This document shows, in pieces, positions 42,210 to 48,457 of a stretch of DNA of 64,000 nucleotides. How positions within the stretch are numbered: the stretch's first letter is position 1; each line of letters opens with the position of its first letter. The stretch is from contig JAGQYI010000035.1 in NCBI GenBank assembly GCA_020436165.1, forward strand, positions 1-64,000, read 5' to 3'. The position numbers and the translations under genes were made by a program. The notes beneath the pieces are model-generated. The model was not told the origin of the DNA. It searched no databases and worked only from the letters and a program-made list of their open reading frames with translations. The DNA is from Cyclobacteriaceae bacterium. Lineage in GTDB: Bacteria; Bacteroidota; Bacteroidia; Cytophagales; Cyclobacteriaceae.

Positions 42210-44570
42210 CTAAAATAGAATCCTGTACTGAGGAATGATGAACAAACCTAACTGGTATCGCTTATCAATAGTTTCCGTTTGAGGATTGTAGTACTCTTCA
42301 AATATGTTTTCCCTGTTGAACACGTTCTGAAAATCGATCAGGAATTCCTGAGAAACACGTTTCATATTCATCCTGTAGCCAATCTTAAAATCTGTTCTGA
42401 AATACGGATCATACTGTAATGAAAAGGCTTCCGAATCCACATAAACAACCTCTCCTGATGCGATGGAAGCATTCAGATCGATGGGGGTATGAAACCTGCC
42501 GCCCGAAAAAGTAAGCTTCACATCCGTTGTTAATACCCCTGACTTACCAAGATGAAACTCTGAACCCCCCAACAAGTTGACAATATACTTGTTATTGAAG
42601 GCGGTGTTTCTCCAAACTCCATCACTGCCCTGGTATTTCGACTCAAACAGCGAAGTAGTAAGCAGGAAGTAGTAGTTTCTGCTGAAATATTTTTCAAGGG
42701 TCAACTCAACCCCATAATTCTTACCAAATCCTTCGTTTACCATATTGGGTTTAACCTCAAACCCAAAGGATGAACCAGAGTTTAATATCGAGTAGGAACT
42801 TGAGATGCTTTCTATAGGAACCTCAAACAAGTGCTGGTAATATCCCTCTACCTTGAAGTGAAAATTTTCACCAAAAAGTTGATCTATACCTGCAGAAAAA
42901 TGATGGCTCTTGGTAAACTCAATATCTGTATTATCAGATTCAGGATGGTCTCTGAATTCAAAATAATTCACTACCAATGGCTGTATTTGGCTGTGCAAAC
43001 CATACCCTAAGCTAATATTAGTTGAAGGAGTAGCCTGGTACAGCATGCCAAATCGAGGCTCAATTACAGACTGCTGAGTAAGTTCCAAATTTTGAAAATG
43101 CACCCCTCCTACCATTCTCAACTTCTCGTTTAGCTTCCATTGGTACTGCCCGTAGGCTTGTGATAAAAGTGTACCACCGATAACATCGGTTGCCCTGAAC
43201 CAGGAGTTTGTATTGGTAAAATATACACTGTCATGGTAATCAATAGTGTAATAGTTCAGATTCACTCCGAGCTCAAATTTGTTTTTGGCATTTATTTTAG
43301 ATACCCATTTGGAGATAAAAGAATATTTTGTTTGCGCCTGATTACCATGAAAATCATCAATCTGCTCATTCACCGGATTATTTTGCAATGAATCGATCAC
43401 CACATTGGAGTACTGGTAGCTCGCAGCCAGTGTTGTGGTTAAATAATTGTTGGGATTGAAATAATAGGTGTGTTTTAAACCTGTCACTCCTATTTTCGCG
43501 CTGTTCTCAAGATCTTCTGTTGAATACAAATTTCCCTGTCCATCCTTTTCTTCTACTGGCTCAAAATGAATGGTGCTTATACCTCCAATTCCAAAAAACT
43601 TAAAACTCCCCGCTTTTTCAGTGTTAAAATCAAGCGAAAAGGTCAAATCTTGGTACTGGGGCACGGCAGTACCTGTGCCAAAATCTACCCCAAGCGCTTT
43701 AAAAACTCCCAGTGTGGAATAGCGATAGTTAACCATAAACGAATTGGTTGACTTTTTAGAAAAAGGCCCTTCGGCACCTAACTCAAATCCATTGAATCCT
43801 ATTTGCCCGGTGTACTCACGTGTAAATCCATTTCCCTTTTTTAGTTCCAGATCAAAAACGCCCGACACCGTGTTTCCATAAGAAGCCGGGAAAGCCGAAG
43901 TAATAAAATCGGAATTTGCCAGGTTATTATTGTTCAGAATACTTACAGGCCCTCCTGTTGATCCCAGGGTATTGTAATGGTTAGGGCTGGGAATGTCAAC
44001 TCCATCCAATCGCCAAAGCAAACTAACCGGAGAATTACCCCTTATCACGATGTCGTTTCGTGAGTCGTCCGCATTGGAAACCCCTGCATAATTGCTCGCC
44101 ATGCGGGCAATATCGTTTCGGGAACCTGCATACCGCCTTGTTTCCTCCACATCAAACGTACGAACGCTGGCAACGGCAGCCTCGTTGTTAATAACATCCT
44201 CTGTTTGATCGGCCGATATAACCACCTCATCCATAGTGGTAATGTCTTCTTCCAAAGCTACATGTAGCACAAGCTCTTTTCCAATTTCCAGCAATTGCTG
44301 GTTCAGGTAGGCATCCTTGTAACCCACAAAACTAAATTTAAGATCTACCCTGCCTACGGGCACTTTTTGAATGGCAAACTGGCCATCGATATCGGTTACA
44401 GCGCCCAAAATAGGATCGGAGCCTACCACCACCACAGTTACTCCAACCATATGATAATGAGAGTCGGCATCTTTTACTGTTCCTCGTATCGTTTGTGTCT
44501 GTGCAAATGCTGCGTGTAAGCTAGCAGTCATTAAGATAATGTACAATGTAATTGTTTTAAGCATTTTCAT
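42210..44570 (-). CDS. TonB-dependent receptor with carboxypeptidase-like N-terminal domain
   Basis: A 786-residue outer-membrane receptor. After the signal peptide (ending AAFAQ) comes a carboxypeptidase regulatory-like domain (about 27-110; IRGTVKDADSH ... GAVTDIDGQFAIQKVPVG). Next is a plug domain (about 115-250) with DEVVISADQTEDV, DIVIRGNSPVSLLWRLDGVDIP and NNNNLANSDFITSAFPASYGN, then the beta-barrel ending in a terminal aromatic strand. The ligand is unknown, and it has no SusD partner nearby. The gap upstream holds phased direct repeats and then a LytTR regulator gene in the same direction, so that regulator may control it. Confidence 0.92.
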   Translation of the reverse strand: MKMLKTITLYIILMTASLHAAFAQTQTIRGTVKDADSHYHMVGVTVVVVGSDPILGAVTDIDGQFAIQKVPVGRVDLKFSFVGYKDAYLNQQLLEIGKELVLHVALEEDITTMDEVVISADQTEDVINNEAAVASVRTFDVEETRRYAGSRNDIARMASNYAGVSNADDSRNDIVIRGNSPVSLLWRLDGVDIPSPNHYNTLGSTGGPVSILNNNNLANSDFITSAFPASYGNTVSGVFDLELKKGNGFTREYTGQIGFNGFELGAEGPFSKKSTNSFMVNYRYSTLGVFKALGVDFGTGTAVPQYQDLTFSLDFNTEKAGSFKFFGIGGISTIHFEPVEEKDGQGNLYSTEDLENSAKIGVTGLKHTYYFNPNNYLTTTLAASYQYSNVVIDSLQNNPVNEQIDDFHGNQAQTKYSFISKWVSKINAKNKFELGVNLNYYTIDYHDSVYFTNTNSWFRATDVIGGTLLSQAYGQYQWKLNEKLRMVGGVHFQNLELTQQSVIEPRFGMLYQATPSTNISLGYGLHSQIQPLVVNYFEFRDHPESDNTDIEFTKSHHFSAGIDQLFGENFHFKVEGYYQHLFEVPIESISSSYSILNSGSSFGFEVKPNMVNEGFGKNYGVELTLEKYFSRNYYFLLTTSLFESKYQGSDGVWRNTAFNNKYIVNLLGGSEFHLGKSGVLTTDVKLTFSGGRFHTPIDLNASIASGEVVYVDSEAFSLQYDPYFRTDFKIGYRMNMKRVSQEFLIDFQNVFNRENIFEEYYNPQTETIDKRYQLGLFIIPQYRILF

Positions 44571-44633
44571 TTATTGGTTTGTCCGCTGCAATTCTACGGC
44601 TGTCTTAAAAGTGCTTACGAAAAATTGAAGACG

Positions 44634-44709
44634 AAGTGTTGAACTGGACGGATAAAGTGTTGAATTGGACGAAAAGTGACCAATGGGAAAGCGCAAGTGG
44701 TGAACGGGA
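44634..44709. repeat. Phased direct repeats upstream of the TonB receptor gene
   Basis: AAGTGTTGAACTGGACG (44634-44650) and AAGTGTTGAATTGGACG (44655-44671) differ by one base and are 21 bases apart. Looser copies start at 44674 (AAGTGACCAATGGGA) and 44695 (AAGTGGTGAACGGGA). The repeat spacing of 19-21 bases is close to two helical turns. The run lies 64-139 bases upstream of the receptor start. A GTTGAAA microrepeat follows at about 44727-44747. It is a candidate site for the LytTR protein encoded just upstream. Confidence 0.6.
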
Positions 44710-44760
44710 AACCCTGGGTGGTTAGAAGTTGAAAGTTGAAAGTTGAACGCTGAAGGTGGG

Positions 44761-45657
44761 TTATGCGGATTGAAGGTGGTATTTTTCTACCAATTCCCTG
44801 GGGAAGTTTCTTGAAACCGGAACTTCAAATTCAAGGCCTTCCAATAAAAGCACAAGCGTACGGGCATTACCAGACACCTCTTTAATAAACGTTCGGTTAA
44901 CAAGATACGATTTGTGGCACTGAAGGATGCTTTCGTCATTTTCAACTACTTCAAGCACATTTTTTAGCGTTATTCTCCAAAGTTTATTCTTAATCTCTGC
45001 CCCTTCTTTCCAGTAAACGGTAGCATAATTGCCACCTTCGGCCTTTACACAAATGAGCTGGCCACTGGAAACTATGGCTGCAGAACTTCCATCCATTGGT
45101 ATTTCCAATGCAATATGATCGTCTTTGACTTGCTTACTTGATTGCTCAAAGGAATGCTCGAGGTCATGGGCCAACCTGCGATTCTTTGTAAATAACTGTT
45201 TTTCAATAATATAATTTATGATCAGGATGGGAAAAATTCCTACGGAAACGGTCATCCACACATTCTGTAAAAATCCAATTGGTCTTTCTTCCATTTGAAG
45301 TATATACATTCTATACATAAGCAAACCATACACCCAGTTAAAAATCGATACCAGAAACGTAATCCAGATCATTAGTAAAATATTCTTAAAAATATTCCAG
45401 TTCGATTCATCAAAAAGCCTTGGGAAAACGGCCGGAAGTACCTGAATGGAAAAATAAATGCACCAAAAAGTTATCAAGCCATAGGCCGAGAGATGCAACA
45501 AAGGGTATTCATCTAGTTGTTCAATACCGAAAGGTTTGAACGTGTAAAGAAACAAAGTGACAAAAACACCTGCTATAAAACTTATATAAACCGATTGCTT
45601 ATACGATTGAACAAATGGGAAGGGTCGGGCTAACCAGTTTTTAACTTGAGTAAACAT
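44761..45657 (-). CDS. Membrane-bound LytTR-family transcription regulator
   Basis: A 298-residue protein with four predicted membrane helices in the first 155 residues and a C-terminal LytTR DNA-binding domain (about 195-295). In the latter, QLICVKAEGGNYATVYWKEG, ESILQCHKSYLVNRTFIKEVSG and FEVPVSRNFPRELVEKY are the family's conserved parts. This one-component, membrane-anchored form is frequent in Bacteroidota; no kinase gene is adjacent. It lies upstream of the TonB receptor on the same strand, separated by 190 bases containing phased repeats that could be its target. Confidence 0.9.
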   Translation of the reverse strand: MFTQVKNWLARPFPFVQSYKQSVYISFIAGVFVTLFLYTFKPFGIEQLDEYPLLHLSAYGLITFWCIYFSIQVLPAVFPRLFDESNWNIFKNILLMIWITFLVSIFNWVYGLLMYRMYILQMEERPIGFLQNVWMTVSVGIFPILIINYIIEKQLFTKNRRLAHDLEHSFEQSSKQVKDDHIALEIPMDGSSAAIVSSGQLICVKAEGGNYATVYWKEGAEIKNKLWRITLKNVLEVVENDESILQCHKSYLVNRTFIKEVSGNARTLVLLLEGLEFEVPVSRNFPRELVEKYHLQSA

Positions 45658-45755
45658 GTGCAGGTTTTGGTATCATTTTCAATTTGCCACTTCAATTTGA
45701 GAACAGGAGAAGCAATTCGGTTTGCCATTACTTCTCCCGGTTCAGAATGACTTCG

Positions 45756-46250
45756 TTACAAAGTTCTGAAATACTCTACAATTTCACGTGCCTGTTCCCT
45801 GGATAGCCCCTGGTTGGTCATTGGCACATTGTTGTATTCTTTCAGTAAGTTTTTGGCATACTCATTTTTCTCTAACATTTCCTGAGGGTTCAAAATCATA
45901 TTCATTACCCACTCAGGAGACCTGCGGTTCAATACACCTTTTTGCGCAGGACCAATAAACTTAACGTCCGGTTTGTGGCAGGCGGTGCATTGCTGATTGT
46001 ACAATTGCTCCCCTTTTTTTGCCATTTCCTCGTCAATGGTCGCTCCCAGATCCACCGATGTAACCGGGCCAATACCCTTGTCGGCCATAAAATCATCCGA
46101 AGCTGGAGCTTCTTCTTTTGCAACTTCGGTGGTTGTGGCTTCGGTTTCCGTAACCACTGCTTCTTCTTTTTGTTCTGAGCTTCCTCCACCTGAACACGCT
46201 GCAAACATGGACAGGCCTAGAACGCTTGCTAAAAATGCTACTTTTCTCAT
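45756..46250 (-). CDS. Cytochrome c lipoprotein
   Basis: A 164-residue predicted lipoprotein: signal with lipobox MFAAC, a Ser/Gly then Glu/Ala/Thr-rich linker (residues about 20-60) and a class I cytochrome c domain. The haem site is CTACH (in LYNQQCTACHKPD) and the probable axial methionine is in NVPMTNQGLS. The C-terminal helix REQAREIVEYFRTL is typical. It should carry electrons in the periplasm, possibly to a terminal oxidase; the sequence does not name the partner. Confidence 0.9.
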   Translation of the reverse strand: MRKVAFLASVLGLSMFAACSGGGSSEQKEEAVVTETEATTTEVAKEEAPASDDFMADKGIGPVTSVDLGATIDEEMAKKGEQLYNQQCTACHKPDVKFIGPAQKGVLNRRSPEWVMNMILNPQEMLEKNEYAKNLLKEYNNVPMTNQGLSREQAREIVEYFRTL

Positions 46251-48349: not shown

Positions 48350-48457
48350 TTTTTGTTTTGCTACTTACCAATTGCTAATTGTTCATTACTAATTGCTATT
48401 GTTTTCTGCAAAACAAATATCTTTTTAGCCGATTACGATAGCGAAAGCGAAAAATAC

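Follow-up and report, generated by a model that had tools for sequence, protein, structure and literature searches.

Organization of the locus

Two genes on the minus strand frame the feature studied in the window, the 64,000-nucleotide stretch of Cyclobacteriaceae bacterium DNA that was analysed as a whole. In transcriptional order, they were a LytTR regulator gene (44761-45657), an array of repeated boxes and a receptor-like gene (42210-44570), with 190 bp between the genes. According to the ORF, Pfam and Kyte-Doolittle analyses, the first gene encodes a predicted membrane-anchored LytTR regulator of 298 aa, with four hydrophobic stretches at about residues 21-45, 53-79, 87-115 and 127-152 and a C-terminal LytTR domain (PF04397, E 5.7e-9, 36.5 bits against a cut-off of 22.6). 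PF04397 was the sole Pfam family given for this protein up to E 0.1, no receiver domain was matched at that threshold, and no MHYT domain was matched up to E 0.1 in the regulator and six relatives. The family profile matched the structures of AgrA and ComE across the LytTR part. A structure prediction from a three-row alignment was too poor to use (mean pLDDT 46.8), and PADLOC gave no match for the regulator or the receptor-like protein. As far as can be predicted from the sequence, the protein fits a one-component transmembrane transcription regulator, in which putative transmembrane segments and a DNA-binding domain are combined in a single chain.

The window regulator was one of 19 LytTR-domain places in the genome, and a relative with 78% identity was found in a Cyclobacteriaceae MAG (L055). 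A second member of the membrane LytTR family in the same genome (L019, G000:C70:5167-6021) was followed by two boxes of a type unlike the window's, an exact TATGTTTG 42 nt past the last box, with an acyltransferase-type gene next in line. The 17 other LytTR loci showed no box pair in their fetched DNA. The downstream gene of the window locus, the predicted target, encodes a 786-aa putative outer-membrane TonB-receptor-like protein, assigned by ORF, Pfam and BLASTP clustering. Its Pfam matches were to CarbopepD_reg_2/CarboxypepD_reg only, and it clustered by BLASTP with the target of locus L076, which has a Plug domain match.

The first-pass annotation had described four AAGTG-led units between these genes, and we confirmed them, with starts at 44634, 44655, 44674 and 44695 (spacing 21/19/21) and, as claimed, 16/17 identity between the first two 17-mers. 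Tandem Repeats Finder reported a period of 21 with 2.2 copies at 44634-44678. The best 17-base self-match at lags of 19-22 in the intergenic stretch (44571-44760) was 16, a value reached in 0 of 20,000 mononucleotide shuffles of the 190 bp (shuffle maximum 15), and no second site with a match of at least 15/17 at these lags was found in the 64 kb window. The paired pattern AAGTGNYNAA-N{9,13}-AAGTGNYNAA had three matches in the 3.8 Mb genome, all inside the window array, and the backward-read control pattern had none genome-wide. The units were not found widely at unrelated genes; the paired pattern was confined to this array.

Because the regulator and receptor genes both lie on the minus strand, the functional reading of the repeats is the complement, and the AAGTG units make up only the conserved 3' part of longer boxes, each about 16 bases in length. 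The boxes started 51, 72, 91 and 112 nt past the LytTR stop in this reading: box 1 (TCCCGTTCACCACTTG, 44694-44709), box 2 (TCCCATTGGTCACTTT, 44673-44688), box 3 (TCCAATTCAACACTTT, 44654-44669) and box 4 (TCCAGTTCAACACTTC, 44633-44648), the last being nearest the promoter. Boxes 3 and 4 were conserved in two congeners and, together with the -7 element described below, were among the best-kept intergenic parts in the comparison of the window with these two genomes. As a DNA arrangement (21/19/21), the array corresponds to the direct repeats of about 9 bp with gaps of 10-13 bp in a target promoter that characterize LytTR binding sites.

Beside the boxes, a heptamer AAGTTGA (CAACTTTCAACTTTCAAC on the minus strand) occurred in three tandem copies at 44726-44747; the 18-mer of this tract had a single occurrence in the genome and no counterpart in the two congeners. 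Elsewhere in the window, a TTG-started ABC-type ATPase frame opened, by eye, with an odd repetitive stretch at 48353-48450 (YLPIANCSLLIA), which is perhaps an intergenic short repeat read as coding.

Recurrence of the boxes in the regulator family

Members of the regulator family were found in 33 of 59 relatives (E up to 0.001), in at least 88 of 291 genomes of the order and in at least 55 of 395 genomes of the phylum (both with an E limit of 1e-20; scoring covered the top 8 or 6 first-look candidates of each genome). The members were drawn by E cut-offs and partly by rank; 40 further loci were fetched by place, and 115 members were left once loci sharing the same final 120 residues had been reduced. 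Without presupposing any motif, we compared the 110 nt downstream of the LytTR stop with themselves in these 115 loci and obtained a self-match peak at lags 19, 20 and 21 (110, 265 and 148 windows, against 16, 23 and 19 in shuffles) and a second peak at lags 39-41 (138, 96 and 55, against 20, 20 and 15). The excess near the same lags was much smaller in the control regions: 44 and 55 windows at lags 20 and 21 in the coding 3' end (shuffles 19 and 21), 61 and 57 at these lags upstream (shuffles 34 and 22), and, 400 nt further on, 62 at lag 21 (shuffles 21) and 58 at lag 39 (shuffles 11).

Expectation-maximisation started from random pieces of half the loci yielded the de novo motif TGCCATTCRTCCCAAA. 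In the held-out half, at least one box was detected in 51 of 58 loci and at least two in 44 of 58, mostly spaced by 19-21; the held-out controls (reverse complement, coding, upstream, far-downstream and shuffled) had a box in 2-8 of 56-58. Since the split was random over loci and relatives stand on both sides of it, we also counted by clusters at 40% protein identity: of 40 clusters, 32 contained a box and 19 contained a phased pair. A phased pair lay within 150 nt of the stop in 74 of the 115 loci, and the longest chain had two boxes in 47 loci, three in 19 and four in 8; 15 members had no box within 150 nt. Pairs were concentrated after the stop (85 in 22,911 nt) compared with the rest of the loci (14 in 839,771 nt), and the box cores recurred in other loci over diverged spacers and in a single orientation.

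These results bear on what had been proposed for the window from its sequence. The expectation of phased LytTR-type repeats was supported; the units amount to four boxes here and to two to four phased boxes in 74 of the 115 relatives, rather than to one pair. The placement of the repeats just after the regulator gene and before the receptor gene proved to be a layout that recurs in the family at a fixed distance from the -7 element. The suggested local control loop was unsupported, because no box pair precedes the LytTR gene at the window locus (L021). Across the family, a box occurred in the 110 nt before the LytTR frame in 11 of 113 members (4/57 and 7/56). Loci L098 and L100 had a box pair about 118 nt before the LytTR frame, and self-control may thus occur in a few relatives.

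Long proteins ending in LytTR after other transmembrane or repeat-like parts were noticed at L204:2217-4580, L205:271-2604 and L206:656-2401. The idea that very long LytTR frames are regulator-target fusions was rejected: in the three regions read of four fetched, the frames of 787, 777 and 581 aa seemed, by eye, to combine LytTR with other sensor or repeat segments.

Position of the array relative to the promoter

The -7 element of the phylum is TAnnTTTG, and one mismatch at most was allowed in our counts. Measured from the start of the last box, it lay at 42/43 nt in 56 of 99 box-bearing loci; 11 loci had it at 52/53, another 11 at 62/63, and 3 of 99 at all offsets from 44 to 51 together. 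Exact matches numbered 40 at 42/43, 4 at 52/53 and 5 at 62/63. Counted from any box, the element stood at 42/43/52/53 in 69 of the 99 loci, compared with 8 of 99 at the control offsets 45/46/49/50; per cluster at 40% identity, the figures were 19 of 40 and 4 of 40. No -7 element was found at the tested offsets in 30 of the 99 loci. The steps of about 10 nt suggest that one helical face must be kept, and the 62/63 class may partly consist of arrays whose last box scored below threshold.

In the window, the predicted -7 element is TAGAATTG (44589-44596, minus strand), which has one mismatch to TAnnTTTG and lies 52 nt after the start of box 4 and 164 nt past the LytTR stop. This assignment follows from the congeners and from the position rule in PMC9723704; loci L023 and L024 carried TAGAATTG and TAAAATTG at the corresponding place. 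The portion of that report available to us places TAnnTTTG at -12 to -5 in Flavobacterium psychrophilum, so the last box would lie near -54 to -39 in the 42/43 class and, in the window, near -64 to -49. Both places are upstream of -33, where an activator would be expected, and the transcript is predicted from the sequence to start near 44584. A TTG 23-25 nt before the TA was counted only 11 times in the 40 exact 42/43 cases; thus a strong -33 element was not seen. A scan of 44500-45800 with sigma-70 and terminator consensus sequences, which are uninformative for this phylum, gave three promoter-like sites (3.3 expected) and no terminator-like site (1.5 expected).

Predicted target genes and arrays away from the regulator

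A next frame on the same strand, defined as the longest ATG frame of at least 70 aa starting within 450 nt, was found in 107 of the 115 loci; where boxes are absent, this frame may differ from the true neighbour. These frames clustered into DUF2306-like membrane proteins (26), acyltransferase 3 (17), erythromycin-esterase-like proteins (11), an unnamed group (8), DUF2141 (7), TonB-like proteins (5, window included), four groups of 2-3 and 24 singletons. The family names rest on Pfam scans of representatives. The DUF2306 match was sub-threshold (28.6 against a cut-off of 31.6 bits), with a second representative giving no match, and of three proteins scanned in the hydrolase group, one had no match, one fell just under and one just over the cut-off. 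The gene beside the regulator encodes an outer-membrane TonB-like protein in the window and a DUF2306-like predicted membrane protein in 26 relatives.

We then ran a DNA-only array model, built from 36 two-box-plus-promoter stretches picked for exact -7 elements, on whole genomes and counted matches with E up to 0.01. Of 24 genomes in a mixed set, most of them with the regulator family, 15 gave matches, as did 7 of 12 genomes chosen for a LytTR without or nearly without a downstream array and 2 of 28 in which the family had no match. This general model missed the diverged array of the window itself. Of the 15 box-less members, 11 had their genomes searched in the 12-genome set, whose twelfth genome is G306 with a one-box member; the genomes of box-less L084 and L154 were in the 24-genome set, and those of L041 and L048 lay outside the model search.

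A family LytTR was present in the fetched flank for 14 of the 18 matches in the mixed set and for one of the 11 matches in the 12- and 28-genome sets. Among the 14 arrays without LytTR in the flank, 11 preceded a homologue of a linked target (6 DUF2306-like, 4 DUF2141 and 1 acyltransferase); for two of these, L190 and L191, a LytTR gene lay at a distance of about 1.5 and 2.1 kb. The matches counted as misses were L171, which by eye falls within a protease-like frame, L188 and L197, and L179 (E 0.0107, before a DUF2141-like gene) was left out of the counts though fitting. In genome G149, an array lay before a DUF2306-like gene, and the best of its two LytTR matches (L084) had no box after it. 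Since the arrays without LytTR in the flank mostly precede the same target families, the operator belongs to the promoter of the target. Promoters of these very families had served to train the model, and the result therefore shows that similar arrays stay with the target rather than that they arose independently. In genome G312, an array (L196, G312:C4:405412-405484) preceded an acyltransferase gene, and no full-length membrane LytTR was found, with partial LytTR matches only among all 45 candidates scored. This array is either an orphan operator or one with a missed regulator.

Possible covariation between a LytTR residue and a box base

Residue 266 (window numbering) separated G from C at box base 1. 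Among loci with a majority base, 54 of 57 with Q and 25 of 26 with R fitted (79 of 83 together), and no other column fitted this base as well. Path-independent tip pairs for this residue and base were few, three agreeing and one being the same. On either tree, none of 4000 runs with simulated box traits reached the association, and simulations of both traits reached it in 0 and 2 of 4000. In a more stringent comparison with the best of 524 residue indicators, p was 0.021 for C and 0.053 for G at base 1. As 22 base classes were tried and the signal was weak under strict correction, the covariation, although suggestive at the sequence level, is a lead rather than proof. An association of box base 11 with residues 246/247 was strong against plain shuffles, but was rejected at p 0.28-0.5 for the best residue on the tree. 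A Mantel-type partial correlation with box distance was weak for both the LytTR half (0.19, p 0.001) and the transmembrane half (0.12, p 0.005), so that it did not single out the DNA-binding domain.

Comparison with known LytTR systems

LytTR proteins bind direct repeats at intervals of 18-21 bp, as described in excerpts of PMC11347149. The same excerpts present CoxC, an MHYT-LytTR protein of Afipia carboxidovorans, and RcoM as one-component LytTR regulators that likewise use three short direct repeats at 18-21 bp, and CoxC as membrane-bound, like the predicted window regulator. Our system differs in that no MHYT or heme domain was found, up to four boxes are present, and the phylum and targets are others; where the CoxC/RcoM repeat is TTNNNGCN, the window boxes read TTCACCAC, TTGGTCAC, TTCAACAC and TTCAACAC. 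The response regulators of the AgrA/ComE type, whose LytTR part is matched by the family profile, bind paired direct repeats about two turns apart in that source, whereas the window regulator has no detected receiver domain, is predicted to be membrane-anchored and is accompanied by more boxes.

A precedent within the phylum is given by the LRS-like operons of Bacteroides thetaiotaomicron and B. ovatus, which, in the sections of PMC6193735 available to us, encode LytTR proteins with several transmembrane segments. There, 11-bp direct repeats 11 bp apart lie upstream of a TATCTTTG promoter, the last repeat starting about 45 nt before TATCTTTG as computed from printed lengths, and the pair precedes the regulator operon, with proposed self-activation and a co-encoded membrane partner. 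The array studied here, in contrast, comes after the regulator gene and ahead of a separate target, with two to four boxes, so that its novelty is limited to more boxes, a downstream target instead of self, and occurrence in many genera. Four-transmembrane LytTR proteins exist and act elsewhere: in the available part of PMC13384398, HigX of Caulobacter crescentus has four transmembrane helices followed by a LytTR domain, like the window regulator, but its reported motif is an imperfect inverted repeat without spacer, and many ChIP peaks are reported for it, unlike the direct repeats at 19-21 bp and the single array of this box type in our genome. Among the matches listed in a search of open-licence full-text literature, no description of operators of this membrane LytTR family was found, the nearest systems being CoxC and RcoM and the LRS-like operons.

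Proposed function and alternative explanations

From the boxes, their recurrence, their distance from the -7 element and the similar arrays that precede the same target families with no regulator gene beside them, we consider it probable that the adjacent membrane-anchored one-component LytTR regulator uses the four boxes as its operator, most likely activating the receptor gene. In the proposed mechanism, LytTR domains would be held at the inner membrane by the four-helix part and would bind side by side on one helix face, about two turns per step (21/19/21). The box nearest the gene would end upstream of the -33 region of a TAnnTTTG-type promoter, and from this position the bound protein most likely helps RNA polymerase. 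On sensing a signal, the membrane part would then cause the outer-membrane receptor gene to be switched on. That the protein binds directly, that it activates instead of repressing, and that there is a signal of some kind are the parts that we infer. The window promoter itself fits the operator interpretation less well, as its -7 element has one mismatch and lies at 52 rather than 42/43 nt from the last box. The 15 box-less members, the 30 loci with no -7 element at the tested offsets, the G312 array, the array of the window missed by the general model and the weakness of the covariation also count against it.

The same operator could work with the opposite sign, the LytTR protein keeping its target repressed and being released by a membrane signal. 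One such repressor, described in the excerpted text of PMC11347149, is CoxC, likewise a membrane LytTR protein and one that uses three phased repeats; its operator, however, overlaps the -35 box, whereas the boxes of the window family lie upstream of -33, and the same excerpts state that the majority of LytTR regulators binding upstream of -35 activate. We regard repression as unlikely. It is far less credible that some other DNA-binding protein binds the boxes and that the neighbouring LytTR gene is a bystander. The G312 array, found in a genome with no full-length regulator detected, would be consistent with such a protein, but the arrays were discovered by starting from the LytTR regulator family alone, model matches were much rarer in genomes without the family than in the sets mostly or wholly with it, and residue 266 shows a suggestive covariation with box base 1. 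Neutral tandem duplication, or a 3'-end feature of the LytTR gene such as a terminator, has next to no probability in our judgement, for despite the two copies with 16/17 identity and the adjoining heptamer array, the cores recur over diverged spacers in one orientation at a fixed -7 distance, similar arrays precede target genes away from LytTR, and the scan gave no terminator-like site.

Under the preferred reading of the array as an activating operator, the window locus may represent a wider class in Bacteroidota, consisting of undescribed membrane-anchored one-component LytTR activators. Each would recognize two to four phased boxes at a fixed distance from the -7 element, in front of a single envelope gene or a few of them (DUF2306-like, acyltransferase, DUF2141, TonB-like and others), and a specificity position, residue 266 paired with box base 1, would prevent cross-talk between regulator-operator pairs. 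We judge this broader proposal about as likely as not.

An enrichment of transmembrane transcription regulators in Bacteroidota is described in the available portion of PMC10269533, according to which their action on targets from the membrane is poorly understood. A recognizable operator with fixed promoter geometry would make targets predictable from sequence across the whole regulator family, and the box arrays supply many natural variants for a DNA-recognition code. The array could also serve to test how several boxes are occupied at once by a membrane-tethered protein.
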